A DNA stretch of 36,182 bases from Promethearchaeota archaeon (GTDB lineage: Archaea; Asgardarchaeota; Lokiarchaeia; Sigynarchaeales; SOKP01), in assembly GCA_030620005.1 (NCBI GenBank), contig JAUXAJ010000017.1, positions 1-36,182 of the forward strand. The letters are read 5' to 3'. The position numbers and the translations under genes are program-made. The notes under the pieces were generated by a model. It made no database searches. It had not been told where the DNA came from and saw only the letters and a program-made list of their open reading frames with translations. This document shows, piece by piece, positions 9,120 to 34,518 of this stretch. How positions within the stretch are numbered: the stretch's first letter is position 1; the number at the start of each line of letters is the position of its first letter.

Positions 9120-10421
9120 ATGGTGGAGATAGCATTATGGACCCCTTTTGAATTGTTGTTAGTTGGTATTGCGATAGCCATTTTAATCGTGTGTGGATCC
9201 AAATATGTAAGTAAGGGGAAACAGAGGGAAAACTCAAATGAAAAAATATACATGTATGGATTTGCTAGCTACTTTATAGGGATTGCTTTTTGGTTATTTT
9301 TTGGGTATTTGAGTTTCATTTTCATCCCAGGAACTTTTAAAAACGACGCGTTATATGTTGACCTAAGTCTAATTAATGAATCCGTCATGCGCGTTGTTTT
9401 TATAAAGCTATGCTGGACTTCTGGGATGATTGGAATCACGTTATATATTTACGCTTTCGAGTTAAACGTAAAACTTACTAAACATGTTATAACAATAATT
9501 TTTGTCGGTTTGATAATTGTGATGAATGTGCTTCCTTCAGTACTGGCACAAAACATTCATCTTTTTGTTGTTGCTTTCAGTGGATTAATGATTATTATAA
9601 CGTTAGTTATTATAACAAGATTGTCCCAAGTTGAGTTTAAAGCAATATCATCAGTTTTAATATTCGGTTTTCTATTGATCATATGTGGAATGGACTTAGC
9701 AGATGTTTTAAATAAAAACATAGTCCCATTATTTTATATTTTAGGAGCCCTTATTTGTCTTCTTCCAACTTTCGTTGATCCTAAACATTTTTCACAATCG
9801 TCAATTTATTGGATTTTAATTGGTATTCTTACTATTGGTTTAATTTGCGTTAATATATTCATTTACATGATATCTCATATCTCACATATTCTTAATATCT
9901 TAATCATTGTTCCGCTTTTATCTACTGCGATATCTGTTTTAATTTCGATATCTTCGTTTTATAGTTCAATAAGGCTTAAAAAACCTCATCAAAGACCTGA
10001 GAAAAAAAAAGATTTTCCAAATCTTTTAGAAATGTTTGCGAAACCTCAAACAATTACTGAAAAAGAGGTTACATTTCATAAAGAACAGAAAATCTGCATG
10101 GTGTGTAAAGGAAAGGTAGCTAGGTTTAATGTTTTTATATGTCCGGAATGTGATGTATTATACTGTAGCAAATGTGCTAATGCGTTAAGTAATTTAGAAA
10201 ACGCATATTGGGTATGCAATACAGCCTTTGACGAGTCAAAACCTTGTAAACCATACCAAAAAGAAGAAGAAGAAAAAATTGACTTAGAAATAACAGAAGA
10301 GACTCCTCAAAAAATAACTGAAGAGACTTCTAAAATACACGAAGATAGTTATAAATTTCCTAAAAAGTCGGAAAATAAAGAAATTCATAAGAAAACTCAA
10401 AAGCAGAATTTCAACGATTAA
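9120..10421 (+). CDS. Multi-helix membrane protein with C-terminal Cys-rich RING/treble-clef-like domain (paralogue 1)
   Basis: About 433 residues. The first 290 or so form eight or nine hydrophobic helices with short loops. A linker with TITEKEV leads to the Cys-rich domain at about residues 320-377: CMVC, then eleven residues, CPEC, then YCSKC, then an LENAYWVCN segment and the signature D-E-S-K-P-x-K-P. The tail of about 55 residues is charged, rich in Glu, Lys and Thr, and probably disordered. Seven of the eight expected cysteines are present; the Cys of the paralogues' CWAC is Tyr here. The cysteine spacing suggests two zinc sites and a probable cytoplasmic recognition or signalling domain. 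Function is unknown. ATG 9120 directly follows an in-frame GTG. Paralogues are at 13199-14218 and 33352-34518. Confidence 0.8.
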   Translation: MVEIALWTPFELLLVGIAIAILIVCGSKYVSKGKQRENSNEKIYMYGFASYFIGIAFWLFFGYLSFIFIPGTFKNDALYVDLSLINESVMRVVFIKLCWTSGMIGITLYIYAFELNVKLTKHVITIIFVGLIIVMNVLPSVLAQNIHLFVVAFSGLMIIITLVIITRLSQVEFKAISSVLIFGFLLIICGMDLADVLNKNIVPLFYILGALICLLPTFVDPKHFSQSSIYWILIGILTIGLICVNIFIYMISHISHILNILIIVPLLSTAISVLISISSFYSSIRLKKPHQRPEKKKDFPNLLEMFAKPQTITEKEVTFHKEQKICMVCKGKVARFNVFICPECDVLYCSKCANALSNLENAYWVCNTAFDESKPCKPYQKEEEEKIDLEITEETPQKITEETSKIHEDSYKFPKKSENKEIHKKTQKQNFND

Positions 10422-10442
10422 TCATGAAAATGAATTAAATAT

Positions 10443-11616
10443 TTAATCCGATATGCTGATATCTAATTGGTCCAAGATTTCTATTAAATCTATTACTTCA
10501 AGACCCATATTAAATTTTTCGTTAGCATCGCTTAAATTTGTCTTACAAAACGGGCAAATTGAAGCTACTACGGTGGCTCCAGTTTCTTTCGCCTCGTCTA
10601 ATCTTTCCTTTGAGATTTCTACAGACCATTCAGGATATCCTATTTTAACTCCTCCACCAGCCCCGCAACACCAAGCATTTTCCTTGTTTCTTTTCATTTC
10701 AACAAAATTGGCATCAGGAAATTGCTTAATAACATATCTAGGTTCCTCGTACAACCCTACATGTCTCCCAATGTGGCACGGATCGTGATAAGTAAGTGAT
10801 TTATTATATCCTGACTTGAAACTAATTTTACCCTCGTCAAGCAGCTTCTTAACTAATTCACAAGTATGATAAATCTCAAAATTAATATCGACGCCTGATT
10901 TCTCAAAATCAACCTTAAGTGTTCGATAACACCCAGCACAGGAAGTAATCACTTTAGTTGCTCCCGTTTCGTTAATTTTTTTAACGTTGTAAAGCATGAA
11001 ATCCTTGACAGGGTCAACCTGTCCAGTTCTTATTAAAGGGCTCGTGCAACAACGTTCATCGATTAATGTAAAATTTAGATTTATTTTTTTTTAGAAATCT
11101 TAATGTAGCATCTCTTAAATCTTTTTGACGGTAATTCGAAGTGCATCCTATGAAATAGACCCATTCTGCTTCGTCTGGTAAGTTGTATTCTTTCTTTAAC
11201 TCTTCGTTATTTGAATTAGATTCACCATATGGATTATAATATTCCGTATTGACCATGAGTGTTAATAATTTTTTTTGTCTTTCAGGACAAAATCCATTTC
11301 TTACTGCTTCTGCTCGTGCTGCCTCGATAATATCCACTATAAAATGATTAAATTTGTCAAATCTACAATTTTCCGTGCAATTACCGCAAGTTGTACACGA
11401 GTACAATACATTAGCTGAATTCTGACTCCATTGAAGATCGCCATTCAAGATCCCATAAATAATCCACAGCCTTCCACCGGCGCTGTAAGTCTCAAAAAGA
11501 TGTTTCTTATAGCTGGGACAATTGAAGTCATCAAATTTATTTGTAAACTTGCAATATCCACATCTGAAACATCTGTGAACTATATCTTTCCAATCTTGCC
11601 CTACTTCTGAAGTCAT
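10443..11616 (-). pseudogene. Iron-sulfur oxidoreductase (GlcF/HdrD-like, CCG domains) with frameshift in an A9 run
   Basis: This is the electron-transfer partner of the adjacent FAD oxidase. The N-terminus has two cluster motifs, CFRCGYC with a later CP, and CTTCGNCTENC. Two CCG domains follow, the first with FIGC, DERCC and SCAGCY, the second with HDPCH, WCCGAGGG and CPFC. The 5' frame stops at TGA 11056, while the correct frame opens before it with LIDERCCTSPLIRTGQ and runs to TAA 10443. Removing one A from the A9 run (T9 on the plus strand, 11084-11092) restores about 390 codons. I chose ATG 11616 over the earlier ATG 11634 because GGGAGGT stands nine bases before it. It probably passes electrons from a 2-hydroxy acid to a cellular acceptor. 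Real mutation, programmed slip and assembly error all remain possible. Confidence 0.8.
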
Positions 11617-11618
11617 TT

Positions 11619-12998
11619 TTAATTTACCTCCCAATTACCTGGATTCATGATATTATTAGGGTCTAAAAGATCGTGAATGTTTTTTAAGAGTTTTTTATAA
11701 TTAGGATCCATCTTTTCAAGAATTAATTTTTGACCTGTCAATTCTGCCTTCCACGGAATGCCTCCTAACTCAAGGGCTAATTTATTTGTTTCGTGCAAGG
11801 CATTTCTTGCATTCTTCATTTCTTTGGAATCAGCTCTATTAAACGAATAGGAAAAGAACATTACAATGGTATGAGAACCTCCAATAAGTCGAGAGCCTAA
11901 TGTTGGAGAAATGTCGTATTTTCTAGAAATTTCGGCGCCTCTCTCATAAGCTTCAGGAATTTTTTCTAATGGCATGAAAGCTCCCACGTATTCAAATCCT
12001 CCTCCTTTTCTAAAATCTGCAGCTCCAGCAGCAAATATCGGTTTGTCCATGTATAAATCCATCAATCTTTGTGGTGCCTTCATGAATCTTGCGTTTCCTT
12101 TACGGTATAAACGCTTGAAAATTTTAGTTTGGCGATCGATATCTTCTTTCGAATCCCCTGTAATATAAGTCATAATAAATATGTATCCTTTCATCCACTC
12201 CGGCTTATCTTGTATTCCAAGCAGGACATCTTCAGCTAAATCTGTGGCCGTGATTTTTGAGAGCAAGTTTGGGAGCATTTTTGGGTCCTTCATCATCCCA
12301 AAAATTATATCCCTCTCTTTTGGTTTTGGAAATAACTGTATTGAAAGTTTAGTAACGATTCCCATCGTCCCGAACGAACTAATAAACAAGCCAATCAAGT
12401 CTGGTATGGGACCTCTACCGAACCAGTAATCCGAAACGGCACAAGAACCGAGTTTGCAAATCTCTCCATTTGGCAAAACTACTTCTAATCCATTAATCAA
12501 GGACCCATGGTCTCCATATTTTTGAGATAAATATCCCGAACCATGAATTAGCATGTTTCCAGCGACTGTTGCTGAAGGTGGGGCGTCTGGAATTGGAGAT
12601 TGCAAGTCTGGATAGTTTTCATTTAAATGCGAGAGTAATTGTCCAGTAGTAACTCCTGCTTCAATAAGAGCATAGCGACTTAATTCGTTTATCTCAATAA
12701 TTCCGTTCATTCTTTTCATATCCAAAACAATACCTCCCTTGATAGGGATTACTAAACCGCTAAGCGTCAAGCCTCCTCCCATGGGAACGATAGGAATTTT
12801 TTCCTCGTTGGCTAACTTTACAATATTTTGAACTTCTTCAACAATTTTAGGCATCACCACGAAATCAACTGGTCTAGGTTCAGATGCCCCAGGATCTTGA
12901 GAATAAATAAAAAGGTCTTCAGCTTTATTCGATACAAAATCTTCTCCAACTATATCCTCTAAATTTTTCAAGATCTTATTTTTATTCAAGAAAAACAA
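11619..12998 (-). CDS. FAD-linked oxidase, GlcD/D-lactate dehydrogenase family
   Basis: A 459-residue PCMH-type flavoprotein. The FAD-binding half has VPMGGGLTLSG at about 71-81, a GVTTGQLL segment and SATVAGNMLIHGSGYLS. The C-terminal half, ending with LDPNNIMNPG, is the usual FAD-oxidase C cap. The family oxidises 2-hydroxy acids such as D-lactate or glycolate. Its stop lies two bases before the start of the iron-sulfur gene, which has its own strong Shine-Dalgarno, so the two form an operon equivalent to glcD-glcF. An alkyl-dihydroxyacetone-phosphate-synthase-like or other D-2-hydroxy-acid role cannot be excluded. The start is ATG 12998 and the stop TAA. Confidence 0.88.
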   Translation of the reverse strand: MFFLNKNKILKNLEDIVGEDFVSNKAEDLFIYSQDPGASEPRPVDFVVMPKIVEEVQNIVKLANEEKIPIVPMGGGLTLSGLVIPIKGGIVLDMKRMNGIIEINELSRYALIEAGVTTGQLLSHLNENYPDLQSPIPDAPPSATVAGNMLIHGSGYLSQKYGDHGSLINGLEVVLPNGEICKLGSCAVSDYWFGRGPIPDLIGLFISSFGTMGIVTKLSIQLFPKPKERDIIFGMMKDPKMLPNLLSKITATDLAEDVLLGIQDKPEWMKGYIFIMTYITGDSKEDIDRQTKIFKRLYRKGNARFMKAPQRLMDLYMDKPIFAAGAADFRKGGGFEYVGAFMPLEKIPEAYERGAEISRKYDISPTLGSRLIGGSHTIVMFFSYSFNRADSKEMKNARNALHETNKLALELGGIPWKAELTGQKLILEKMDPNYKKLLKNIHDLLDPNNIMNPGNWEVN

Positions 12999-13198
12999 CT
13001 CATTTTATTGATTTTAAAAGATTTTTTTTCCATTCAAACAAACACTTTTCAAAAACATAATTTTTGATAATGATTCAAAATTTTTATAATGTTAATAAAA
13101 ATAATTATTGAGACTTCTTTATATATATAATTGTTTTTAATAACTTCATTGAAGTTTTCGTCGGGACAAGGAGAACTTGAAAGACATTCTTATCAGGG

Positions 13199-14218
13199 TC
13201 AATTTTTAGGTTCTAAGTCGTCTTGAAGGTCTATATCTTCTTCAACATTATATGGTTTAACCGGTTTAGACTTATCAATTGGTCCATTACAAGCCCAGCA
13301 CGCGTTATCCAAGTCACCCATCGCCAAAGCACATTTTTGGCAATATAGAGCGTCACATTTACAAATAAAACTGAAACCTTCGACTTTTCCTTTACACACT
13401 AAACAAATCTTCTTTTCTCGAAAAAAAGTAACCTCTTCTTCATTTACTCTTCGACGATTACCTAAGATCTTTAAAAAATCTCGAACATCATCTATTTTTT
13501 CAACTGAATATTCCATTTCTGAATAATTGTCTTTTATATTCAAATATTTTTTCATCCAGTTAGGTAGAATGAATCCCAAATAAAAAAAAATCGAACTCAT
13601 CAATAATAAAAATTGTCCGATGGTTTCTATCAGGAATTCCCTTATCAACATAGTGATAAATGCTCCAATTATAAAAAAAATAAAAGCTAAAAACAATATT
13701 TTTCCTTTCACGTTAGTTTCTTTATCGTTTGAATCTAAAGATTGTTTTACAAATAAAATTCCCATGGTTAAAAATATTAACGAAGTTAAAGAATAAATGA
13801 AAATGCTAAAAGGAGTAAACTCTGTATTAAATCCCATATTATATCCTATTGTTGTAGGATCTGAAAAAATGAAATATAAAAGTATTATTTCAGTAATTCC
13901 AATGGTTATTATAAACACCCTTAAAGTTATCTTACGCTTCAATAATTTTAAATGAAGTAATTTTGACATTGCTAACACCCAACATATTAGCCCTGGGAGA
14001 ATAAAACCTATATCTAACAAAAAAAATACTTCATAAGAAATAACTACATTGAAAAAAACATATAAGATGAAATATGCCACTATTGAGATTGCCCAAGTTG
14101 ACATCGCAATCCACGTTAATCCAACAAGAATTAAAACACTGTTTTTAGTCTTGAAATATTTTGAAATCATTTTAATTCCTACAATTAGGGTTACTGTGAC
14201 ATATATTGAAGGTAACAC
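13199..14218 (-). CDS. Seven-helix-type membrane protein with C-terminal Cys-rich domain (paralogue 2)
   Basis: A 339-residue protein with about seven hydrophobic helices over the first 225 residues, then a linker and the same Cys-rich domain as the 9120 and 33352 genes. The domain reads CLVC, then C-K-C (one residue shorter than in the others), YCQKC, CWAC, and the closing D-K-S-K-P-V-K-P. Its membrane half does not resemble that of the other two paralogues; it recalls seven-helix sensor modules by layout only. So the domain is combined with more than one membrane module. The start is GTG 14218, with AGAAGGA touching it. A TATA-like element (ATATATAAAC on this strand, around 14258-14268) lies about 45 bases upstream. 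Function is unknown; a membrane receptor or ubiquitin-like ligase component are guesses. Confidence 0.75.
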   Translation of the reverse strand: MLPSIYVTVTLIVGIKMISKYFKTKNSVLILVGLTWIAMSTWAISIVAYFILYVFFNVVISYEVFFLLDIGFILPGLICWVLAMSKLLHLKLLKRKITLRVFIITIGITEIILLYFIFSDPTTIGYNMGFNTEFTPFSIFIYSLTSLIFLTMGILFVKQSLDSNDKETNVKGKILFLAFIFFIIGAFITMLIREFLIETIGQFLLLMSSIFFYLGFILPNWMKKYLNIKDNYSEMEYSVEKIDDVRDFLKILGNRRRVNEEEVTFFREKKICLVCKGKVEGFSFICKCDALYCQKCALAMGDLDNACWACNGPIDKSKPVKPYNVEEDIDLQDDLEPKN

Positions 14219-14293
14219 TCCTTCTATTAGTTGAACTTGAATGTTTTTTCACCAATGTTTATATATTTCTAACATTTAATTAATCATTAATAT

Positions 14294-14992
14294 TTAGATC
14301 TTTTGCATCCAGACTCTAAGTCTGGAAAATAAAATATCAAACTTGTATAGTTCCTTCTCTATAATAGGAAATTCTTTTTCAGGAATAATAAACGAACCCC
14401 TGCCTAATTTTACTCCTTTTAGTTTGTAGACTAGTCCTTGTTTTTGATAGGAATATATTTTATCAGAATATTTCTTAGAAGTTTTATAACCATATAGAAT
14501 TCTCTTGAGTTTCATCTTGTTAGACTTGTCTAATCTTCTTAAATTTAACGTGATAATTTGATAAGGATCTAGCTGTAGAGCTTTTTTAAGAGTATCTTGA
14601 TAATTTGAATTGCCATATAGTAATTTACCTTCTGCTAACATGTTTTCAATAAAAATTCGATCCCAATCATGAATTCTTTCGGGATAAATAAAAACACATT
14701 GTATTGATTTATCTATTTCCTTTCCTAAACTTAAAAAATGTTCGAAAACTAGCTCTTCAGAACTCTTTGATGCACGATTTTTAAATATAATGCATGAATC
14801 AACATCACTTTCTTCTGTAAAAGTCTTTGTTGCGTAGGAACCGAAAAGTAAGATTGAGTTTATTTCTGGATATTTGGATATTTTCTTTTTCAAGTATGTT
14901 TTAATGAAACTTACTAATTTCTCGTATTCTGAGTTATCTTTACTTATTTCTTCACCTTTTTTTTTAAAACCAAGATTAAGCTCCGTTTTCAA
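14294..14992 (-). CDS. MNT-type nucleotidyltransferase
   Basis: A 232-residue protein of the DNA polymerase beta-like nucleotidyltransferase superfamily. It contains GSYATKTFTEESDVD, an exact GS-x10-D-x-D catalytic motif, near residues 51-65. In known MntA-HepT pairs this type of enzyme inactivates the HEPN toxin by adding AMP; that is family knowledge, not shown here. The C-terminal half of about 120 residues, rich in Lys and Tyr, is longer than in minimal MNT antitoxins. Its start overlaps the preceding HEPN-like gene by 17 bases, so the two are translationally coupled. A role as a lone nucleotidyltransferase acting on RNA is an alternative. Confidence 0.75.
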   Translation of the reverse strand: MKTELNLGFKKKGEEISKDNSEYEKLVSFIKTYLKKKISKYPEINSILLFGSYATKTFTEESDVDSCIIFKNRASKSSEELVFEHFLSLGKEIDKSIQCVFIYPERIHDWDRIFIENMLAEGKLLYGNSNYQDTLKKALQLDPYQIITLNLRRLDKSNKMKLKRILYGYKTSKKYSDKIYSYQKQGLVYKLKGVKLGRGSFIIPEKEFPIIEKELYKFDILFSRLRVWMQKI

Positions 14993-15347
14993 TCACCTTT
15001 AGGCATATCGCTTCTAATTTGAAATATTGGGTTTTTAAATCATCAAAATCCTCATCGTTCCAACTAAATCCATAAGAAAATTTCGGTCTAAGTTTATTTT
15101 CTATTTTTTGGAAAAAACGCCATACTTTTTCTGTTTGGTTCTTAAATATGTTGACATTTTCCTCTAAAACTCTCCTTACACTTTTATGCTTATTAATGTG
15201 TACCCTATTTTTTGCCGCACAAGCTTCGATTAAATGAAATAATGAAAGAAAAAACAATTCAGCGCAAGTGGGTTTTGAATTTTCATCATTTTCCGCATCT
15301 TTTTTGAAAGTTAAATATAATTTCTTATGATTTTGAAATGTTCCCAT
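14976..15347 (-). CDS. HEPN-like small helical protein paired with MNT gene
   Basis: A 123-residue, mostly helical protein. The segment LFHLIEACAAKNRVHINKH resembles the first helices of HEPN proteins, and RVHINKH fits the R-x(4-6)-H ribonuclease pattern, though I cannot confirm it sits in the correct helix. It overlaps the MNT nucleotidyltransferase by 17 bases in the order seen in HEPN-MNT toxin-antitoxin operons. If the pair is of that kind, this is the RNase toxin and the downstream protein its antitoxin. The start is ATG 15347, directly after a run of T/A. The assignment leans mainly on gene order. Confidence 0.5.
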   Translation of the reverse strand: MGTFQNHKKLYLTFKKDAENDENSKPTCAELFFLSLFHLIEACAAKNRVHINKHKSVRRVLEENVNIFKNQTEKVWRFFQKIENKLRPKFSYGFSWNDEDFDDLKTQYFKLEAICLKVIENGA

Positions 15348-15480
15348 AAAATTTCATTTTTTTTTTTTTCGTAATATTATAATACGAATTTGTATATAAA
15401 TTTTTATCCATATCATTTCGCTTGTAATTGTTCTAAATGAATTTCAATAATTATTTTAAATAATTTTTCTTATAACACTT

Positions 15481-20066: not shown

Positions 20067-20205
20067 AGGAAAATTAGAATAAAAGATATTATTACAAGAT
20101 TTTAAATTTAAGTTAAAAAATGAATCTTTGTATAGTAATATTTATTAGGACAATTAGAATAAAAGATATTATTACAAGATTTTAAATTTAGGTTAAAAAA
20201 TGAAT
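20067..20205 (+). repeat. 80-bp-period tandem duplication of the TFB start region
   Basis: A 59-base segment at 20067-20125 recurs at 20147-20205 with two mismatches (20071/20151 and 20111/20191). Each copy runs from AGGA through AATTAGAATAAAAGATATT to TTAAAAAATGAAT and includes an ATG. The second copy's ATG (20200) starts the TFB gene. The first copy's ATG (20120) opens a 21-codon frame ending in the second copy. The promoter-proximal region plus start codon has been copied in tandem. Confidence 0.9.
20120..20185 (+). CDS. 21-codon upstream open frame from duplicated TFB start
   Basis: The ATG in the first repeat copy gives MNLCIVIFIRTIRIKDIITRF then TAA, ending 14 bases before the TFB start. 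It probably arose by accident of the duplication, but if translated it could regulate TFB expression as an upstream open frame. Confidence 0.2.
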   Translation: MNLCIVIFIRTIRIKDIITRF

Positions 20206-21147
20206 AGTCTCATGATGAATTGTTATCGTACTCTTTTAAAGAATAGAAATAGTAAAGACGAAAATTTTTCCCCCTTTGAATGTTGTGATAATCAAAACAT
20301 CGAGTCCCGCGATGGTAACAAAGTCTGCTTAAACTGTGGGATGATTCTTGAAAGAACATTCATAGGAAATGAACGAAGGGCCTATACGGTAGAAGAGATT
20401 CAAAATAGAAGGCGAACTGAACCACGTTGGAGAGAATTCGGTCCAAGAACAATGCTTCCTACAACAAGGACTGATTCTAAAGGTAAATCGATAGGACCTA
20501 AAGAACGGGCATTATTTTCAAGATTATCTAAAATTCAAAATTCTTTAATTTCTAGCATTGAAAGAAATTTATGGGAAGCTAAACCAAAATTAAAAATGCT
20601 TACATCCAAGCTTAACATTCCTTATTATATTGCTGAAACTGCGTGGAAGATTTACATGGTAGTTGCCAAGAAAAAGCTTACAATGGGACGCTCCATTGAT
20701 GGTTTTATTTCCGGTTCACTCTACGCAGCCATCCGAGTCCACGAATTCCCTCGTTTATTAGACGAGATTTGCGAGGCTCTTTTAACTCCAAGAAGAACAG
20801 TCCATAGAAGTCTGGCAATGATAATAAGAAATGTATTACCACAATTAAATCTCCGTTATCAACCAATCAACGCCGAAACATTAGTCTTTAGATTTGGAAA
20901 TGATCTGAATCTTCCGATGGGTGTTCAACAATGTGCGATAAAAATGTTAATTAAAGCTTCCAAAAACGGCTTACAACGAACAGGTAAGGACCCAAAAGGT
21001 TTGGCCGCAGCTTGCATATATATTGCGGCAAAAAATGCTGCAATAAGAAGAACTCAATCAAGAATCGCAGAAACGGCGAAGATTACCGAGGTTACACTTC
21101 GATCTCGCGCTAAACAAATCAAAAACAAATTAGAGCAGAACTATTGA
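20200..21147 (+). CDS. tfb: Transcription initiation factor B (TFB/TFIIB)
   Basis: A 315-residue TFB that bridges TBP at the TATA box and RNA polymerase. The N-terminal zinc ribbon has C43-LN-C46-G as its second pair, but its first pair is C28-C29, without the usual C-x2-C spacing. The B-reader/linker region follows (RRAYTVEEIQNRRR, FGPRTMLP). Then come two cyclin folds at about 95-195 and 200-312, the second ending in TLRSRAKQIKNKL, a TFB-type recognition helix. Length is normal for archaeal TFB. ATG 20200 lies in the second copy of a tandem repeat; later in-frame ATGs (codons 5 and 6) are also possible. A second, divergent TFB lies 720 bases downstream, so this genome uses more than one TFB, as do haloarchaea and other Asgards. 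Confidence 0.92.
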   Translation: MNSLMMNCYRTLLKNRNSKDENFSPFECCDNQNIESRDGNKVCLNCGMILERTFIGNERRAYTVEEIQNRRRTEPRWREFGPRTMLPTTRTDSKGKSIGPKERALFSRLSKIQNSLISSIERNLWEAKPKLKMLTSKLNIPYYIAETAWKIYMVVAKKKLTMGRSIDGFISGSLYAAIRVHEFPRLLDEICEALLTPRRTVHRSLAMIIRNVLPQLNLRYQPINAETLVFRFGNDLNLPMGVQQCAIKMLIKASKNGLQRTGKDPKGLAAACIYIAAKNAAIRRTQSRIAETAKITEVTLRSRAKQIKNKLEQNY

Positions 21148-21871: not shown

Positions 21872-22852
21872 TTGAAAAATTCAGACCGTTCTAATCAGAA
21901 CCTCCCAGAATGTAATCACAAGAACATGATACAAGAAGGAGGGTCTGTTGTTTGTAAGGATTGTGGATTAATATTAGAAGAAGGGATAACTTTCGAGAAA
22001 GGCATGCCTGTTACCACTTTCTATAAGGATTCGCAGAGAGAATACGAAAGAACGATTAGAATTAAAGATTCAAGAGCCATTCAAGACCCCACAATAAAGC
22101 AAAAATACGATAAAATCAAGACTCTCGATATATGGTATCGAGACGCTCAATCAAGCTTTGGACAACAAAATCAAACCATTGAACTATTGAAAAGTTATGG
22201 TATTGGATTAAATATTGACAACGCGAAATATCAAGAAATTAAAGAAAGGTACTTGTCATTTAACAAAAAACATAGAAAAACCTATCAAAACATGGTAATA
22301 ATTTTCTTGGCAATTGTTTGGATGAAGATTAAAGAAACAACTAGCGTTAGAATCGAGCGGTTTATAGAAGTTTGCGTTGAACTAGGACATAAAATAAACA
22401 AAAAGATGCTTAACAACGCCATGTTAAAAGTCAAAAAAACTGAAAAGAAATGGCAGAAAAAATTCAAGACTCCAGAAAAACTTGAAAAAGAAATAAAAAA
22501 TAAAATAAAAATTTTATTTCAAAAGGACTTGAATAATATTACACACGAAAGCGTTAAAGAAAACGTATACTATGAATCAAAATACTATAAGATAAAAATT
22601 GAAATGCAATTATTAGCAGGTAAATTACTTGACATGATTCCTTACGAAAAAATAAGAAATTTAAATTATAAAGCCTTTACAGCCGGTTTAATCTATTACG
22701 TGGGTCAATGTTTGCCAAATCGAAAAATATTTACTCAAAGCCTCTTAGAAAAAACAACTAATTTTTCTAGCACGACTATTCGTAAAAAGTTCCACATGCT
22801 TAAAGATATCTTAGGTGAACCTCAAGAATTTCGGTTTAGATTGGGGAATTAA
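21872..22852 (+). CDS. Divergent TFB-like transcription factor
   Basis: A 326-residue protein with a TFB plan. The zinc ribbon is C14-N-H16 with C28-KD-C31-G, followed by GLILEEG. Two degenerate cyclin folds follow (about 75-200 and 225-322), joined by a Lys-rich stretch; the second ends with FSSTTIRKKFHMLKDIL, a TFB-like helix-turn-helix. The His in the first ligand pair recalls eukaryotic TFIIB. The core is far less conserved than in the TFB at 20200, so it may serve special promoters. No ATG is available in frame; TTG 21872 is the likely start. A tiny ATG frame (21861, four codons) ends by overlapping this TTG (ATTGA), which could couple re-initiation. Stop TAA. Confidence 0.75.
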   Translation: MKNSDRSNQNLPECNHKNMIQEGGSVVCKDCGLILEEGITFEKGMPVTTFYKDSQREYERTIRIKDSRAIQDPTIKQKYDKIKTLDIWYRDAQSSFGQQNQTIELLKSYGIGLNIDNAKYQEIKERYLSFNKKHRKTYQNMVIIFLAIVWMKIKETTSVRIERFIEVCVELGHKINKKMLNNAMLKVKKTEKKWQKKFKTPEKLEKEIKNKIKILFQKDLNNITHESVKENVYYESKYYKIKIEMQLLAGKLLDMIPYEKIRNLNYKAFTAGLIYYVGQCLPNRKIFTQSLLEKTTNFSSTTIRKKFHMLKDILGEPQEFRFRLGN

Positions 22853-26867: not shown

Positions 26868-26966
26868 CATGAATTCTTTTTTTCTTATATTTTTTTAAAA
26901 TATTAGGAATAATACTTTTAATTCTAGAGGGCGGTAAGGGTGCAATCATGAGGGGATTTAAGAAAC

Positions 26967-27101: not shown

Positions 27102-27124
27102 ATTTTAATTCTTAACAAAATAAT

Positions 27125-27650: not shown

Positions 27651-27895
27651 GGAGGGATTACAAAATTACTTTGGATATTTCTTTACAAACATGTAACATG
27701 ATATTAAAATCTTATTACAACAGACTTCATTGTGTAAACTTCCATTTATTAGTATTATCAGATTACTTTTTAGTATTTTTATTGAAAATTTTTACCTTAC
27801 ACAAATCTAAAATATAATTCTTAAGATTAAAACACCTAAACCTCTGAACAATGGTGAAATAAGAAAAAGATCATTTTAGTAACAAAATTACACAT

Positions 27896-29341
27896 TTAAA
27901 GACCGAATTCTTTCAATTTAGACCTTATTTTTTCAGATTTCTTGGGAGTAAGGTCATAATATATCCAGAAAATTGCTGTACCAAATAGCATGAAAATCCC
28001 GGGAATTAAGGCCATTGAAATATGAATCCCCACAATTGCTAAGTCGGATTGAGTTACTGCTCCCTCATCAAATCCAGTTAATTCATGCACCACCCCAAAG
28101 ATGATTGCTTGAATGACTATAGAAAAACGATATATAAAAGCATTGAACCCGTTAAAAAGCCCTTCATTTCGTTGCTTGGTTGTAACTATATTTTCATCAA
28201 TGACATCTGCAAAAACAGTCCCTCCTATTATAAACAGCCCCGCCAAACTAATACCCCATAAACACATCATGATCATCAAACTAATTAGATCTTCAAGAAA
28301 TACCAAGGGAATTGTATTTAGAACCGTCATCACCGCACTTAATATCATCAATTTTCTATTATTGTTCTCTTTTTTTGCCCATTTAACCCAGAAAGGAATA
28401 GAAATAAAGGTTGCCATGAGATAGGGTGCAAAAAGCAATGTTGAATATGTTGCTGGCAATTTTAAAATGTATCGTAAACTATATTGTAATGAACCCAGCA
28501 AGCAACCCCTTAATACCCCAAAACTTAATATTAGTACAACATAAACTCTGAAATTTTTTTGCTTAAAGGCGGATATAAAAGCTTGAAAAAATGATGGCCT
28601 GTAGGCTCTTTCTTCTTCATATTTTCGCAAGTAAAGCGTTATTGATTCTTTATCCTCGCGTAATCCGGGAATTGCAAATAATCCTGAAATTAAAGCAACT
28701 AAGGATAATGCCCACGCATGATCTATGAAAGACTGTGTAACTCCATAGTGTACAATGAATGGAGGTATTAAAGCCCCAAATGCGGTACCAAGGGAGGAAA
28801 ATATGAAACCTATTCCAGATGCGGTTCTTCGTTCATTTAAATTGCGAAACTTATCAGGAAAGAGTGCTGCACTATTTATACCCCAAAAAGATAATGTAGT
28901 ATCAAATAAACAAGTAGAAAATACGAGCCAAGCAAAAATAGACCATTGACCTGCAATGGGATCAACTGAAGGTGGTGTAAATAGAAGTACATAAATTAAT
29001 ATTGAAGGAAACATTGAAGAAATGATCCATGGAAACCTTCTTCCCCATCTTTTTGTGAAGAAAAACGGTCGATCACAAATGTAACCAACAAGAGGATCAT
29101 TTACCGCGTTCCAGATTGCGTACAAAATAAAACCGAACATTGTTAGCAAACTATCTAACCCCATCTCAACCTCGTAGAAATAAAAAACATATGTACTAAA
29201 TGTAAGAGAAAAGATACTAGAAGTAAAGCGATTCATGCTGTATGAAGTAATATTCCATGTAGAATGTAATCTTTCTGGAATGTTTTCACTTGAATTCTCG
29301 ATTTCTTTTCTTTGAGAGTTCATTTTTTCATCGAATTTCAA
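27896..29341 (-). CDS. GPH-family (MelB-like) sugar:cation symporter
   Basis: A 481-residue membrane protein of the glycoside-pentoside-hexuronide:cation symporter family within the MFS fold, with about 12 helices. The N-terminal half has NAVNDPLVGYICDRPFF, matching the family's Asn/Asp cation-site motif in helix 2, and the loop RWGRRFPWI is the typical cytoplasmic basic loop. The loop KYEEERAYRPSFFQAF lies in the central cytoplasmic link. A region with VFADVIDENIVTTKQRNEGLFNG matches the helix 10-11 loop of the family. It imports sugars with H+ or Na+. It lies next to a D-aminoacylase, but no operon is formed. Start ATG 29341, stop TAA. Confidence 0.88.
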   Translation of the reverse strand: MKFDEKMNSQRKEIENSSENIPERLHSTWNITSYSMNRFTSSIFSLTFSTYVFYFYEVEMGLDSLLTMFGFILYAIWNAVNDPLVGYICDRPFFFTKRWGRRFPWIISSMFPSILIYVLLFTPPSVDPIAGQWSIFAWLVFSTCLFDTTLSFWGINSAALFPDKFRNLNERRTASGIGFIFSSLGTAFGALIPPFIVHYGVTQSFIDHAWALSLVALISGLFAIPGLREDKESITLYLRKYEEERAYRPSFFQAFISAFKQKNFRVYVVLILSFGVLRGCLLGSLQYSLRYILKLPATYSTLLFAPYLMATFISIPFWVKWAKKENNNRKLMILSAVMTVLNTIPLVFLEDLISLMIMMCLWGISLAGLFIIGGTVFADVIDENIVTTKQRNEGLFNGFNAFIYRFSIVIQAIIFGVVHELTGFDEGAVTQSDLAIVGIHISMALIPGIFMLFGTAIFWIYYDLTPKKSEKIRSKLKEFGL

Positions 29342-29384
29342 AAAAGTTTTTTCGTATTAACTTAGAATTAGTATAACAAAATTT

Positions 29385-29525
29385 TTAAAATTTACGCTTA
29401 TAATACTTATGAGATTTTAGAAAAAGGGGCTCTGCTTTACGATACTCTCCATATAAGAAGAAATTCACTGCTTTTTGTAAATCTTTTTCATATTTACTTT
29501 CAGTTTTTTTATCATATTTTGGCAT
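29385..29525 (-). CDS. Small TPR-like helical protein
   Basis: From ATG 29525 a 46-residue protein begins MPKYDKKTESKYEK and continues AVNFFLYGEYRKAEPLFLKS. The latter fits one TPR-like helix pair (G-E-Y-x-K-A). It is basic and probably cytoplasmic. An ATG upstream at 29648 gives 87 residues, but that extension runs antisense to a fragment at 29542-29766, so I prefer the short form. Function unknown. Confidence 0.4.
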   Translation of the reverse strand: MPKYDKKTESKYEKDLQKAVNFFLYGEYRKAEPLFLKSHKYYKRKF

Positions 29526-29541
29526 TTTTATTAATTTTAGT

Positions 29542-29766
29542 TTGTTTTTCGAATTTTCCTTCACCGACGGGTATTTAGTCAGTTCCGAAGACACCAAGTC
29601 GCCAATGCATGTCAGGTATGCAGATAATTTTGAAGGAGACGGTTCCACGACCGATTTTACCCTAAATTACACGGTTCAAACCGCGGAATTGTCCGATATC
29701 TACATTTATAACGGCGACGAGTTGAACAACACTCTAGGAGAGTTTAGCACGAAAAATAAAAAATAA
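29542..29766 (+). pseudogene. Fragment resembling a phage/virus tail-fibre module
   Basis: A 74-codon frame with TTG 29542 as the only start reads YADNFEGDGSTTDFTLNY, then LSDIYIYNGDELNNT. The pattern F-x-GDGSTT-x-F-T-L followed by a VYxNG-like strand is common in tail-fibre and receptor-binding proteins of viruses. It is richer in G and C than its surroundings. It has no proper start and is probably a piece of a larger, imported gene. Stop TAA 29766, eight bases before the converging D-aminoacylase. Confidence 0.35.
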
Positions 29767-29774
29767 TCAAAGGC

Positions 29775-31418
29775 TTAATTCAATCTTCTTAAAACTACTC
29801 CCGGATATTTATTCTTTTGTTTATTGTTATCAACGACAATTACACCATTAACAATTACATATAGCATTCCTTCTGGAAATTGGTTGGGATTTTCATATGT
29901 TGCCTTATCAATTATAGTGCTTGGATCGAAAATTACGATGTCTGCCCATGTTCCCTCGTATAATAGGCCTCTATCTCTTAATCCCAATCGTTGAGCTGGG
30001 AACGACGTCATCCTGCGAATGGCATCTTCTAAAGTTAAAACATTTTCTTCTCTAACATATTTTCCAAGAATTCTAGGATATGTTCCGTAGAAACGAGGGT
30101 GAAACTTTCCAAGTTGAGGTAAATACGGAATACCAAGACCGTCAGTACCGACCATTTGGTAACGACTTGTCATGATTCTTCGGATGTCTTCTTCTCCCAT
30201 AGTTTCAATTGTCATTGCAGCTCCTAGCTCTTCATCTATAAGTATTTCTAATAGAGTTTCCCATTCATCTTTTTTGCCTTTAATCTTGGTAATTTCACTA
30301 ATGTTCTTGCCCTCGATATCTTTCCATTTTTTTGTTCTGGCAGACGCAATGAATATGTAATCGAATCCATTTTCACCGTTGAAATTCCCCCAACCTTTAA
30401 TACCCTCAACAACATCTTTTTTCATACGCTCTCTATCGTCTGGGTTTCGTAATCTTTCTAATAACATTTCATCACCGCCCTCATGAGCCCAAGAAGGAAG
30501 TAATTGAGATAGTTTTGTCATGCTCCTGTTGTACGGATATTGATCACAACTAATATTTATACCACGGGCATTTGCTTCTTCTATAAGGCGTAATGTCTCT
30601 TTACTTGTACCCCAATATATCTTACCAGCGATTTTATGGTGTGATATGTGCCCACCCACGCAACCTGATTTTTCTACAATCTCAATTACTTCTTCTACTG
30701 CGTCTACAACAGTCTGACCTTCACCGCGAATGTGTGAGAAATATAGACCTTGATACTCCCCTACAACCTTAGCAACTTCCAAGATCTCGTCAGTTTTTGC
30801 AAAGACTTGTGGAGCGTAAATTAATCCCGTGCTTAGCCCTAAAGCTCCTGCCTCCATGGCTTCTATCGCATATTTTTTCATTTCTTCGATTTCTTCAGGT
30901 GAAGGGGGACGATTTTCATGGCCTGGACCACCAGCAATACGGATGTTTTCATACCCAACAAAGGGTACCAAATTGGCGGGACAGCCCTTTTTTTCCAATG
31001 CTTGTAAATATTGCTCAAATGTGTTCCACTGGAATTTAAAATCTTTATATTGAGGGATAAATCTAGTATAAAACCTTCTAAAATCATCCTCTTTATCTGG
31101 ACGGATTGGAGCGAAACTATTTCCACACTGACCAATAACGCAAGTTGTTATCCCTTGTCGTAGGAACGAGTCGGCTTTATTAAAAAGAGGAAGAACAAAA
31201 TCAGTATGGGAATGCATATCGATGAAACCTGGGCATGCGATTAGTCCAGATGCGTCGATCTCTTTTATAGCGTCCCCACTTAATTTTGGTCTGATCTTGG
31301 CAATTTTTCCATCTTTTATAGCAATATCAGCGCGATACCAAGGATTTCCTGCTCCATCGATAACATTTCCATTCTTAATAATGATATCAGAGCTCAATTT
31401 TATCAATTCTCTATTCAT
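29775..31418 (-). CDS. N-acyl-D-amino-acid deacylase (D-aminoacylase)
   Basis: A 547-residue zinc amidohydrolase that removes acyl groups from N-acyl-D-amino acids. Visible motifs are H69-S-H71-T-D in GFIDMHSHTD, C98 in IGQCGNS (the bridging Cys), SHIRGEG and ISHHKIAGK for the later His ligands, and GTDGLG with the catalytic Asp. The C-terminal GTWADIVIFDP closes the small beta domain. Length and order match the family, so it is probably active and allows use of D-amino-acid derivatives from peptidoglycan or necromass. Start ATG 31418, stop TAA. An AT-rich promoter region of about 150 bases lies upstream. Confidence 0.92.
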   Translation of the reverse strand: MNRELIKLSSDIIIKNGNVIDGAGNPWYRADIAIKDGKIAKIRPKLSGDAIKEIDASGLIACPGFIDMHSHTDFVLPLFNKADSFLRQGITTCVIGQCGNSFAPIRPDKEDDFRRFYTRFIPQYKDFKFQWNTFEQYLQALEKKGCPANLVPFVGYENIRIAGGPGHENRPPSPEEIEEMKKYAIEAMEAGALGLSTGLIYAPQVFAKTDEILEVAKVVGEYQGLYFSHIRGEGQTVVDAVEEVIEIVEKSGCVGGHISHHKIAGKIYWGTSKETLRLIEEANARGINISCDQYPYNRSMTKLSQLLPSWAHEGGDEMLLERLRNPDDRERMKKDVVEGIKGWGNFNGENGFDYIFIASARTKKWKDIEGKNISEITKIKGKKDEWETLLEILIDEELGAAMTIETMGEEDIRRIMTSRYQMVGTDGLGIPYLPQLGKFHPRFYGTYPRILGKYVREENVLTLEDAIRRMTSFPAQRLGLRDRGLLYEGTWADIVIFDPSTIIDKATYENPNQFPEGMLYVIVNGVIVVDNNKQKNKYPGVVLRRLN

Positions 31419-31573
31419 ATTTGATTTTAACGTACTATATCTCTTTAAAATGTTTAAAAGTTAAATAATTTAGGCATGAAACAAACAGATAAAACAAAAT
31501 TACTTTTTCACTAAATATATATCTTCCTAATACTTTAATTTGCAATATAAAAAAAAAGGTTTTAAAACAAGCA

Positions 31574-31795
31574 GTGGAATATTTTGGAAAGCAATGTGGA
31601 AAAAAAATTGCTAAAAAAGTTCAAGTTGAGGGAAAACCATTGACTTTCAAGAATTGGCTCATATATACCTATATAGATTCAATGAAAAATTTTGGACCAA
31701 TACCGAGCATTGAAAACGGCGATTTCGCGACTAAAATAAAGCATGGCACCTTTTACAACGCTGCCGAGGAATGGGGATTAAGTGAATACGATTAG
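31574..31795 (+). CDS. Short open frame, probable gene fragment
   Basis: A 73-codon frame from GTG 31574 (EYFGKQCGKKIAKKVQVEGK) ends FYNAAEEWGLSEYD then TAG 31795. The frame stays open upstream of the GTG without a good start, which suggests a lost 5' part. I recognise no family with confidence. The amphipathic Lys-rich start looks like the inner part of a helical domain. It lies upstream of a TIGR04076-type gene, with an LRR remnant on the opposite strand between them. Confidence 0.35.
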   Translation: MEYFGKQCGKKIAKKVQVEGKPLTFKNWLIYTYIDSMKNFGPIPSIENGDFATKIKHGTFYNAAEEWGLSEYD

Positions 31796-31839
31796 ATTTA
31801 TTGCGAGTATGTAGACTATAAAATACTACAATTTTATTA

Positions 31840-32034
31840 TCAACTTTCTGGTTTCTTTATCTTTTTATTATTTAATTGCTTTTTCATTATTTCTGGAGAA
31901 GGAATGAGGACATTTTTTGGACCTTTTCTTTTATCAAGTCCCTTAATTTCGGAGATTTTATTTGACCCTAATCCCAACTATTTCAAGTTCTGAAGATTGT
32001 CTAAACCTTTTATTTCCAAAATCTGGTTCTTACA
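31840..32034 (-). pseudogene. Remnant of an SDS22-like leucine-rich-repeat gene
   Basis: Reading the minus strand from 32034, the frame gives NQILEIKGLDNLQNLK, then TAG (31978-31980), then LGLGSNKISEIKGLD, then about 30 Lys-rich residues ending in KKPES and TGA 31840. The two copies of N-x-I-x-EIKGLD are the 22-residue SDS22-type repeat. No start codon exists, so only the 3' end of a gene survives. The in-frame TAG replaces the position usually Glu in NLKEL. This class is unlike the 23-residue repeats of the LRR gene at 35249-36157. Confidence 0.75.
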
Positions 32035-32144
32035 TTATAAAAATGTAAGCTTCTTTAGAAAATATTCATATTTCTACAAAAAATAATTTAAACTCAAGAA
32101 AATAATAAGAATTAAATTGAAAAAAAAAAAATAATGTTTGTTGA

Positions 32145-32567
32145 ATGATTATGGAAGAAGGTCTAAAATACATGCAAAAACTTTTAGAATTTACAGATGA
32201 AGAGATGGAACTTTTTAAGGCAAACCCGAAAAATTTGGAAATTCTTAAAAAGACTCCTGACCTAATAAACAAGACAATTATCGTCGAAGTGACAAAGTCT
32301 CATGGCTGTGCTAGCCAGCATAGAGTTGGAGATATGTTTTATTTTACGGGCGATGGAAATTTGCTAACTAAATTATGTCCTAAAAAAATATGCATGTCCG
32401 CTCTTAATGCTGCAGGTGGTTTAGTAAATAGTGCAGCAATGTTCATGTGGGCTGGTCGAGATGCCAATGAAATGCCGTTTACAGTAGCAGGATGTTCTGA
32501 TGTAGGCATACAATGTGGCGGCTGGGGACACGTCGTTTTGAATATTAGAGTTGAAGATCGCAAATAA
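32145..32567 (+). CDS. TIGR04076-type cysteine-rich conserved protein
   Basis: A 140-residue protein matching the TIGR04076 family of uncharacterised proteins from anaerobes. Diagnostic segments are DEEMELFKANPKN near the N-terminus, then VEVTKSHGCASQHRVGD, LLTKLCPKKICMSAL, and the C-terminal GCSDVGIQCGGWGH. The conserved cysteines (about C46, C74, C79, C117, C124) and His residues suggest metal or cluster binding, which is not proved for the family. Two ATGs (32145 and 32151) are possible starts. It is flanked by gene remnants and looks intact, so it is presumably under selection. Confidence 0.85.
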   Translation: MIMEEGLKYMQKLLEFTDEEMELFKANPKNLEILKKTPDLINKTIIVEVTKSHGCASQHRVGDMFYFTGDGNLLTKLCPKKICMSALNAAGGLVNSAAMFMWAGRDANEMPFTVAGCSDVGIQCGGWGHVVLNIRVEDRK

Positions 32568-32569
32568 CT

Positions 32570-32767
32570 CAAATCTTCCGCAAGCTCCGTTTTTGGCTGG
32601 ATCTTTCCGTTTAAATTTGTTAGATTTGCATTTATATCGTTAATTTCTGAATCGAACTCTTTAATCACATTCAGGATCTCCTTCCACCCTTTTCTATATA
32701 CATCTACCTGCAAAATTGGATTAAAAAATTTCTTCCGATTTCGCTTATTGTTTAACTTCATGACCAT
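32570..32767 (-). CDS. Weak open frame, convergent with TIGR04076 gene
   Basis: From ATG 32767 the minus strand reads KLNNKRNRKKFFNPILQ and about 40 further residues with a coiled-coil flavour (WKEILNVIKEFDSEINDINA). The frame then runs antisense into the TIGR04076 coding region to 32339, so I count only the part outside it. It may be a truncated gene or chance. I recognise no family. Confidence 0.2.
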
Positions 32768-32870
32768 GATTTAAAAAAAAATAGATTTCTAGCTTTTCAT
32801 GAGTTCAAATATTTATTCCTTTAAAAATAATTTAAAAATAAAAAAAAATTTGAAAAAAAGATCTATTTAG

Positions 32871-33122
32871 AACTGCGTTGAAGGAATAGCAAATCCTTCC
32901 ATCGAACTCATGCATCTAGAGAATAAATTAAGGTTCTCTGAGGAGGGACGGGCAACCTTATATAATAAAAGCAAGCTTAGTGGCAAAAAGGTGCCAAGAT
33001 ACATCGAGATCGATAATAAACCAGAAAACAACAAGGAGGATAAAATATTTTTCATTTTACATTCTTTTTTTCATGTTTATTTAATCTATTTTTATAAAGA
33101 AATTAGACTCTTAAAAACCTAA
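32871..33122 (+). pseudogene. Orphan open fragment
   Basis: After TAG 32868-32870 the frame reads CVEGIANPSIELMHLENK, then RFSEEGRATLYNKSKLSGKK and PRYIEIDNKPENNK, before turning into low-complexity AT-rich codons and stopping at 33122. The first 55 residues have a protein-like composition and better codon use than the rest. An internal ATG at 32910 is present. Probably a decayed gene piece; no family recognised. Confidence 0.25.
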
Positions 33123-33202
33123 TGGTTACTTTTTAATTGTCTTGAACCTCATTTTTATAGTAAGATTTATTATTTTTCAACATTATTCAGCATTTTTTTC
33201 GA

Positions 33203-33247
33203 AAATATTTATATAAAAACGATTAACTAATATTATACAAAAAAGTA
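33203..33247 (+). promoter_or_regulatory. Upstream block shared with the 9120 paralogue
   Basis: GAAAATATTTATAT is followed after about 15 bases by ATATTATACAAAAAAGTA at 33230-33247, identical over 18 bases to 9057-9074. It lies about 105 bases upstream of ATG 33352, some 60 bases farther than in the other gene. It is likely the promoter of this paralogue. Confidence 0.55.
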
Positions 33248-33351
33248 CGATGAAATCTAAAATTTTGATTCGTACAAAAAAAATTCAAAATCTCACGAAC
33301 TTGGAAAGGTGAGCAAAAATCTCGGATGTAGTCATTTATACTGACTTTGAC

Positions 33352-34518
33352 ATGATTTTATATGGAATGGGAATTATTCTACTGTTCATTACTGCCCTCC
33401 GATATCTCGGAATGGCACGAAAAAAGGAGAATCCAAACGAAAAATTGATTAATCGAGCATACGGCATCGTTTTCATTGGTCTTACCATTCTATTTAGCTT
33501 GTATGTTCTTTACTTTTTATCCTTGGAAGGTTATCATGTTAAAAATGTTTACATGGGAGCACTTGAAAAACTATCTTTCATTTCTGAATGGCTGTATAGA
33601 AGTGCGTTGAGTTTATTGATCGTATTTCAGACGATTTTTATTTATGCTTTTGAAAAAATACGGAATAAAAAATATACTTTCAGCCTGATTATCGGCATCA
33701 TAGGTATCATCTTGATGATTTTACTCCCATTAGAAATGTTATTTACATTAGGTCTTGTTCCAATTACAATAATATACTTTTATTTCATTCACGTGTTATT
33801 TACTCTCATGAAATGGGCTAAAAAGGAGCTAAAAGCGGCTACTTCTTTTATCATCTTGGGGACTATTTTAATTGCCAATTCCACTATATTTACAAATCCC
33901 ATTATCATGATGACTGGAGCGATGCCCTCAATACTCCTTCCTTTATCGTTACTAACGGGCACGATTCTCTGCGTGGCACCGACATCCTTGAAATCAAAGT
34001 TCTTCTTGCAAAGCACAAGTTTTTGGTACGTGTTCTGTGCAGGCGTGATTGGGTATAGCGTGTTCTTGTTTATTTTTACTATAATTTTTATCCCCGAACT
34101 TGCTATTTTTGCTTTTATATTGCTCATTTTTTTTAGCGTTGAATTCATGTTTTTTCTCAAGTCCCTCTTAAAAGAAGAAGGAGTTAGCACGAAAAAGAGC
34201 GTTGGTGTCATCGGCGTTTTCACACGACCCGAGACCATCACGGAAGAAGAAGTGTCGGTGTCGAAAGAAAAGAAGATCTGCTTGGTCTGCAAGGGAAAAT
34301 TGGGGGGATTTAACACGTATATTTTCATGTGTTCTGACTGTAATGCGTTTTACTGCGAAAAATGTTCAAAAGCGTTAAGCAATTTAGAAAACTCGTGTTG
34401 GGCGTGTAATGCTCCCATCGATCCTTCAAAACCCTCAAAACCGTTTGAGCAAGAAGAAAAAGAAGAAGTAGTGGTGGAAGAAAAAGTTCCAAAAAAGGTT
34501 GGAGGCGACGCGAAATGA
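33352..34518 (+). CDS. Multi-helix membrane protein with C-terminal Cys-rich RING/treble-clef-like domain (paralogue 3)
   Basis: A 388-residue protein with the same plan as the 9120 gene: eight or nine helices over about 285 residues, a linker with PETITEEEV, then CLVC, CSDC, YCEKC and CWAC, closing with D-P-S-K-P-S-K-P. All eight cysteines are present. The tail is short and acidic, then basic. Its membrane half aligns by eye with that of the 9120 protein at several points, for example K-x-E-N-x-NEK after helix 1, IYAFE in the middle, and a later L-Q/S-Q-S-x-S/I-x-W segment. In-frame TGA 33310 precedes ATG 33352 with no other start between. Probably a receptor- or adaptor-like membrane protein; the biochemical role is unknown. 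Confidence 0.8.
   Translation: MILYGMGIILLFITALRYLGMARKKENPNEKLINRAYGIVFIGLTILFSLYVLYFLSLEGYHVKNVYMGALEKLSFISEWLYRSALSLLIVFQTIFIYAFEKIRNKKYTFSLIIGIIGIILMILLPLEMLFTLGLVPITIIYFYFIHVLFTLMKWAKKELKAATSFIILGTILIANSTIFTNPIIMMTGAMPSILLPLSLLTGTILCVAPTSLKSKFFLQSTSFWYVFCAGVIGYSVFLFIFTIIFIPELAIFAFILLIFFSVEFMFFLKSLLKEEGVSTKKSVGVIGVFTRPETITEEEVSVSKEKKICLVCKGKLGGFNTYIFMCSDCNAFYCEKCSKALSNLENSCWACNAPIDPSKPSKPFEQEEKEEVVVEEKVPKKVGGDAK

Follow-up and report, generated by a model that had tools for sequence, protein, structure and literature searches.

How the large repertoire of substrate-specific E3s in ubiquitin signalling originated is an open question. Lokiarchaea are related to the ancestors of eukaryotic cells, and a 36,182-nucleotide stretch from one of them (Promethearchaeota archaeon, assembly GCA_030620005.1, contig JAUXAJ010000017.1; hereinafter the window) contains three genes that share one homologous C-terminal domain of ~70 residues with an eight-ligand zinc pattern, in each case behind a multi-helix membrane half. 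What is such a domain doing on membrane proteins? In this Asgard lineage, one RING-like tail lies over many N-terminal modules and its gene recurs beside a compact ubiquitin-like (Ubl)/E1/E2/JAMM cassette. The simplest account of these comparisons is that the tail is probably a RING-like recruiter of a Loki-lineage Ubl system that was joined to a variety of bodies, most often membrane bundles. We put the probability that the domain proteins are E3-like recruiters of this conjugation system at roughly 0.58.

Three genes in the window share a conserved tail

The three genes are described below; 7TM and 9TM denote membrane halves of seven and about nine transmembrane helices. Hereinafter P, L, G and C numbers designate proteins, loci, genomes and contigs.

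9117..10421, plus strand: gene 1 (P0001), 434-residue open reading frame (ORF) with ATG at 9120; 9TM-type membrane half and C-terminal RING-like domain
10059..10268, plus strand: gene 1 RING-like domain, hidden Markov model (HMM) positions 315-384 of the 434-residue ORF; seventh Cys replaced by Tyr
13199..14218, minus strand: gene 2 (P0003), 7TM half and C-terminal RING-like domain
13241..13441, minus strand: gene 2 RING-like domain, HMM positions 260-326; C-x2-C, C-x-C, C-x2-C, C-W-x-C
13544..14218, minus strand: gene 2 seven-helix membrane module, arranged like a G-protein-coupled receptor (GPCR) or rhodopsin in the structure model
33352..34518, plus strand: gene 3 (P0002), 9TM-type membrane half and C-terminal RING-like domain
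33352..34197, plus strand: gene 3 membrane module, about nine helices; residues 1-217 (VIA-align rows) in a GPCR-like arrangement
34243..34458, plus strand: gene 3 RING-like domain, HMM positions 298-369

The ORFs lie where an earlier reading of this DNA (the initial annotation) had placed them; it gave the right coordinates for gene 2 and left its minus strand unmentioned. The tail homology that it claimed is real. The sole significant BLASTP alignment between P0002 and P0003 is a 77-column tail with 56% identity (E 7e-29, single comparison). The consensus, with small variations, is TEEEVSxxKEKKICLVCKGK...C-x(1-2)-C-x4-C-x2-C-x10-CWxCNxPIDxSKPxKP. The acidic EEV linker common to the three proteins belongs to the conserved tail unit, in agreement with the initial annotation. 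The structure models are fairly confident over the domain; in gene 3 the mean predicted local distance difference test score, taken in blocks of ten between residues 301 and 360, is 77-91. In none of the three window proteins does a Pfam or NCBIfam family score above its cut-off.

The membrane halves of all three genes are probably related, judging from profile comparison. P0001 and P0002 are homologous along nearly their whole length, with 28% identity over 384 columns. The membrane half of P0003 gives hhalign probabilities of 98.6 against the 7TM set and 92.6 against the 9TM set; an MFS set gives 0.1 against either of these. The kinship of two halves had been noted before and holds, while the third half, described as unrelated, is probably related as well. 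Similarly, the proposal that the domain was copied within 25 kb stands as paralogy and not as recent copying. The 28% identity between P0001 and P0002 suits old paralogues and speaks against a recent tandem duplication of the three genes. In the 7TM module of gene 2, basic residues lie mostly in loops predicted to be inside. A Foldseek search with the full-length model gave no match at E<=0.001, and the 7tm Pfam families matched none of 66 relatives at E<=0.01. The structure models were made of full-length proteins, and the VIA-align rows span the membrane part and not the zinc fold.

The tail resembles RING domains

The eight ligands are arranged in four pairs with cross-brace spacing. The pattern, which demanded Trp after ligand 7, fits 202 of 234 distinct domains. 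Of the 32 domains outside it, 26 have His as ligand 2 and are excluded for that reason, and six are truncated, one ligand short, or without the required Trp. A profile of 28 domains was compared with the PDB. The best match was RNF4 (1.3e-5, two stretches), followed by TFIIH p44 (4e-4), RBBP6 (5e-4), PCGF5 and Mdm2. The Pfam model zf-C3HC4_3 matches 7 of the 28 domains and 15 of 66 proteins of the 7TM set at E<=0.01; P0052 alone has a domain that passes its curated cut-off (28.7 versus 27 bits). Specifically, two positions are hydrophobic in all 202 pattern-fitting domains, namely V/I two residues after ligand 1 and L/I/M/V four residues after ligand 6. We take these two positions, mapped from c-Cbl, to face the E2. 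Because the nearest profiles are those of RINGs (RNF4, TFIIH p44 and RBBP6), the domain appears to be RING-like.

One tail occurs on many bodies in Lokiarchaeia

Two short peptide patterns of CLVC type, run against 84,980 species genomes, identified 64 loci, of which 62 belong to Lokiarchaeota/Lokiarchaeia, one to Sigynarchaeota and one to a contig of an Anoxychlamydiales bin. The last (L058) is a domain protein on a 4.5 kb contig, possibly mis-binned Lokiarchaeal DNA. A search with the P0002 tail recovered 159 proteins at E<=0.01 among 160 candidates. A profile built from the tail domains, the check that the initial annotation had proposed, was searched in the 227 genomes of the phylum, with the peptide-pattern scan covering what lies beyond it. 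At E<=1e-5, 39 of the 227 genomes are positive, with up to 24 matches per genome; a broader profile gives 26 and 36 matches in two genomes (G104 and G004). These numbers support the notion of an expanding family. Within the data searched, the family is almost confined to Lokiarchaeia and near relatives. The viral contigs searched by tblastn contain no relative of the family, which weakens a viral origin. Among the relatives listed, four (P0008, P0009, P0010 and P0040) carry the precomputed label PF26037.

The domain is mostly C-terminal. Among matches with E<1e-5 its end lies <=30 residues from the C-terminus in 99 of 123 rows and <=100 residues in 118 of 123, with L092 (313 residues), L131 (196), L130 (172) and L159 (150) among the exceptions. 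A simple hydropathy count over 128 domain rows of the loci predicts no membrane helix after the domain, save in L149, a chance sub-hit.

In contrast to the constant tail, the N-terminal halves vary. BLAST grouping places 240 of them, a few proteins being counted twice as a P entry and a locus entry, in 14 components. Six of these comprise 97 halves of 9TM type, 86 of 7TM type, 25 large surface proteins, 13 TPR proteins, 5 MFS transporters and 4 of the P0003 type, and the remaining eight hold one or two halves each. The multi-helix groups are probably related to one another, on sequence grounds. Consistent with this range of scaffolds, Pfam matches on domain-bearing proteins include TPR, MFS, PNPOx, ATC_hydrolase, and beta-helix/NosD with PKD. 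The proposed shift of the metal domain between membrane scaffolds gains support and extends to TPR and surface proteins. The 26 domains with His as ligand 2 (CIVH) form a subfamily found mainly on surface proteins. Giant surface-type proteins in L125, L136, L122, L123 and L130 bear this variant near the C-terminal end, with a beta-helix in L125 and L136 and PKD in L125. An LRR-like protein in L139 bears a shortened copy of the domain.

In many relatives, a domain gene adjoins a ubiquitin-like cassette

The 668 neighbouring ORFs of the 64 loci and the window were grouped. An E1-like family is present in 11 loci, a JAMM family in nine and an E2-like family in eight; the commonest group, in 15 loci, is a mixed single-linkage group with Ras-like GTPases. 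In L005, Pfam identifies UQ_con (1.8e-11, 44.3 bits versus a cut-off of 27), JAB (1.1e-13), ThiF and Ras. The E2 of these loci, designated E2B, is divergent, with UQ_con scores of 36-46 bits in most genomes. The motifs of the cassette proteins are intact: HPN and a catalytic Cys in 17/17 E2B sequences, a candidate catalytic Cys and two CxxC in 11/11 of the E1-like E1B, and Glu, HxH and Asp in 10/10 JAMM proteins.

E2B occurs in 20 of 30 domain-positive genomes, and 17 of the 20 loci have a domain gene within 5 kb, versus about 0.3 such pairs expected from random placement; these linkage and co-occurrence counts come from related genomes and are not independent events. The 46 typical E2 genes (>80 bits) of the 30 genomes served as a control; not one has a domain gene within 5 kb, the closest being about 7.7 kb away (G112:C12). 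Across the phylum E2B is present in 24 of 227 genomes at E<=1e-20; the four beyond the 20 are unlinked, so 17 of 24 are linked. Of the 24, 23 are among the 39 domain-positive genomes, and the odd one, G141, gives a weak match with the broader profile. An E2 gene of any type is found in 37 of the 39 genomes with the domain and in 130 of the 188 without it, a comparison confounded by kinship that says little.

The composition of the cassette is consistent. Among the 20 loci picked for E2B, E1B is present in 20, JAMM in 20, a family of long proteins labelled TPRlg in 19 and the domain gene in 17. A Ras-like GTPase accompanies 12 of the loci, whereas the flanking family that comes next in frequency reaches 5. 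What the linked domain gene encodes varies: a 7TM or a 9TM protein, a soluble-looking protein of 590 residues, or a fragment. Therefore, the constant part is the domain. The 590-residue protein (L177:5845-7617, beside E2B) is charged, has zinc-ribbon-like CxxC pairs and carries the domain away from its C-terminus.

Of 15 gaps beside E2B that were read, 14 contain a conserved ORF of 84-89 residues, Ubl-B, with a short call in L184.

L183:10540-10794, minus strand: Ubl-B, between the E2B and RING-like genes; homologous places in L165-L182

All 14 aligned Ubl-B sequences have a C-terminal Gly-Gly followed by 0-4 residues. In a comparison of the Ubl-B profile with the PDB, 30 of the 32 rows belong to ubiquitin or to proteins derived from it. 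Nine-repeat ubiquitin chains score 1e-11, a value summed over the repeats. In 14 loci Ubl-B follows the domain gene on its 3' side, in the same orientation and no more than 400 bp away; in three more the distance is larger. One copy in L167 and two in L142 have the opposite orientation, and five Ubl-B loci have no domain gene in view. By genome, Ubl-B is present in 27 of 227, of which 26 are among the 39 domain-positive ones; by place (n=33), a domain gene lies within 5 kb in 23 and not in ten. Extra Ubl-B copies off E2B are located 1.4-1.8 kb from domain genes in G001 (two), G117:C13, G135:C173 and G138:C76. The two in G001, L142:4498-4794 and 10275-10550, are Ubl-B-like paralogues, each ~1.4 kb from another RING-like gene on the opposite strand.

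G112 and G111 also have a second cluster, which encodes E1, E2, proteasome beta and a ubiquitin-fold protein; in G112 it is on C12 and the E2B cassette on C28. A 9TM domain gene adjoins proteasome beta at a distance of about 4-7 kb from the rest of the cluster. The corresponding loci, L189:7913-15887 and L190, contain the 20S proteasome beta gene together with E2, E1, the ubiquitin-fold gene and the 9TM RING-like gene. The ubiquitin-fold protein ends in TAGI, without Gly-Gly, and we therefore do not call this cluster a canonical ubiquitin system. By profile comparison, Ubl-B has no match to this ubiquitin-fold protein.

Proposed role of the domain proteins

Sequence comparison shows that the domains on the various scaffolds are homologous and mostly at the C-terminus, and it establishes their ligand pattern and gene neighbourhood, together with the intact HPN and Cys of E2, E1-like, JAMM and Gly-Gly motifs. 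We propose that the variable N-terminal module would act in the membrane, face outward or bind a partner, while the constant RING-like domain would bind zinc on the cytoplasmic side and most likely dock the dedicated E2B. A dedicated E1B would charge E2B with Ubl-B for conjugation, and the JAMM protease would trim the 0-4 residues after Gly-Gly and take Ubl-B off targets. The 7TM and 9TM versions would then link sensing at the membrane to the attachment of Ubl-B to proteins close by, among them possibly the receptor itself. The three window proteins would use a cassette at another place in their own genome. A further and more speculative step, which we hold tentatively, is a Lokiarchaeal signalling mode in which GPCR-like seven-helix receptors carry their own RING-type recruiter and direct Ubl-B tagging, with the tail pasted onto new scaffolds until a genome encodes tens of such proteins; it might be a prokaryotic counterpart of receptor-E3 or HRD1-type ligases, predating or parallel to them.

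Several observations weigh against E3-like recruitment. Within the domain, one of them concerns the linchpin position. According to PMC5654768, all RING E3s carry Lys or Arg after the last ligand. In the 202 domains, the residue after ligand 8 is N in 119, D in 33, E in 27, K in 4 and R in none, and in the 26 His-type domains it is G in 11, K in 8, R in none, with others. The window's three domains have Asn there; presumably RBX1, too, has Asn in the linchpin place. Because the linchpin is mostly absent and occupied by Asn, Asp or Glu, we call the domain RING-like and not a catalytic RING E3, and canonical E3 catalysis is unproved. After ligand 7, Trp replaces Pro in 225 of 234 domains. The Cys pattern attributed to all three window proteins is correct overall and fails in P0001, in which Tyr replaces the seventh Cys (ENAYWVCN) and leaves the second metal site one ligand short. 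Pfam RING models stay below cut-off in most domains scanned, including the window's three, and FYVE, C1 and B-box models (FYVE_2, C1_2, ANCHR-like B-box) match about as often as RING, and weakly.

The cassette raises points of the same kind. Ubl-B scores 0.0013 against a 160-residue polyubiquitin and 0.35, a weak value, against single 76-residue ubiquitins, and its Pfam matches are sub-threshold, several being ubiquitin-like (Rad60-SLD, TUG-UBL1, RA). Linkage is missing in 7 of 24 E2B genomes, some near contig ends, and 16 of 39 domain-positive genomes, many of them draft assemblies, have no E2B at E<=1e-20. The cassette synteny may have been inherited once and not arisen in 17 independent events. 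Most domain copies, the window's three included, lie away from any cassette. A phmmer search of the window ORFs with nine seed proteins, taken from the cassette and from the second E1/E2/ubiquitin-fold cluster, gave no match at E<=0.1. Linked ubiquitin-like, E1 and E2 genes, for which the initial annotation proposed to look, are present in relatives and were not found among the window ORFs, and the tie of the window's three genes to the Ubl-B system, which goes through homology, is a predicted one. Its suggestion of a membrane E3-like role fares similarly: the RING-like profile and the Ubl-cassette linkage in relatives favour it, and the mostly missing basic linchpin counts against it.

Alternative explanations

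The missing linchpin and the Trp in place of Pro would be expected of a non-catalytic RING-like adaptor, which docks E2B or Ubl-B-modified partners and gathers membrane proteins without activating transfer. TFIIH p44 and Polycomb PCGF RINGs reportedly act as non-catalytic members of complexes. The close profile match to p44 and the strict conservation of the whole tail over unrelated scaffolds, as for a docking tag, agree with this explanation. However, the positions that should face the E2 remain hydrophobic, and the RING-like gene next to E2B is the domain gene, the one RING type that the search covered. We regard an adaptor as unlikely. It is improbable that the domain is instead a target, whose many lysines would single out membrane proteins to be modified with Ubl-B and then sorted, perhaps by the ESCRT of Asgards. 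Lysines are abundant before and after the zinc domain, and the tail is borne alike by transporters, 7TM and surface proteins; gene regions with ubiquitin and ESCRT are reported in Lokiarchaeota (PMC9192718). Nevertheless, a folded eight-ligand RING-like domain exceeds the needs of a tag, and soluble TPR and enzyme fusions also bear it. Given how rare the basic linchpin is, the adaptor and the target explanations keep some weight.

An unrelated treble-clef or FYVE/C1/B-box-like domain that binds lipid or nucleic acid, in a neighbourhood that is functionless inherited synteny, has little chance in our estimate. The spacing C3-x2-C4-x4-C5-x2-C6 is also that of FYVE and PHD, the best match of a first profile was a PHD chain (1.1e-4), and, as described above, the FYVE_2, C1_2 and ANCHR-like B-box models match about as weakly as RING. 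Against inherited synteny, the cassette core and the domain gene occur at 17-20 of the 20 E2B loci versus at most 5 for other flank families, and extra Ubl-B copies, off E2B, lie near further domain genes. E3-like recruitment to the Ubl-B system thus remains our preferred explanation.

Other genes in the window

A SET-domain protein of 135 residues (Pfam 9.4e-18) is encoded at 5579-5986. A nucleotidyltransferase-domain gene overlapping a small ORF (14294-15347) lies upstream of gene 2, an arrangement that we assume resembles an MNT/HEPN pair. A TFIIB gene (20200-21147) is followed 0.7 kb on by a diverged protein with a weak TFIIB zinc-ribbon match (21872-22852). Two further products have relatives near RING-like genes, namely an MFS_2 sugar-type transporter (27896-29341; 6 loci including the window) and a leucine-rich-repeat protein (35249-36157; ORFs in L009 and L031).

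Comparison with known systems

The Caldiarchaeum ubiquitin operon (PMC5654768) is likewise a prokaryotic cluster of Ubl, E1, E2, JAMM/Rpn11 and RING-type genes, with JAMM transcribed opposite to its other genes. Its RING protein, srfp, is small, carries Arg at R69 and has shown E3 activity; R69A impairs the archaeal ubiquitin cascade. In contrast, the Loki domain is present in many copies, most of them without the linchpin and most of them part of proteins with membrane modules. The ubiquitin-ESCRT regions of Lokiarchaea (PMC9192718) come from the same lineage, and there too ubiquitin, E1, E2 and deubiquitinase genes cluster. Unlike our analysis, the passages of that source identify E3 by IPR018611 only and mention no membrane RING family and no E2B/Ubl-B cassette. 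Within the titles and abstract openings of the open-access literature, supplements being outside the scope, no description of the domain family or of the E2B/Ubl-B cassette was found, which does not prove its absence.

Through the domain proteins, receptors in the membrane may be able to steer the tagging of proteins. Most cassette proteins are small and look soluble, and a pre-eukaryotic, membrane-linked Ubl signalling system is therefore testable in vitro. The closest systems include 7TM receptors (GPCR, microbial rhodopsin) and HisKA_7TM sensors on the membrane side, and on the zinc side p44 and RBBP6, C4C4 RINGs among the top profile matches. To our knowledge, neither p44 nor RBBP6 is fused to a receptor-like membrane bundle. 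The polytopic eukaryotic membrane RING E3s (HRD1, gp78, TRC8, MARCH6) combine a multi-helix membrane half with a cytosolic RING. Compared with these, the Loki domain is a C8 or C-H variant, mostly without linchpin and with its own putative modifier.

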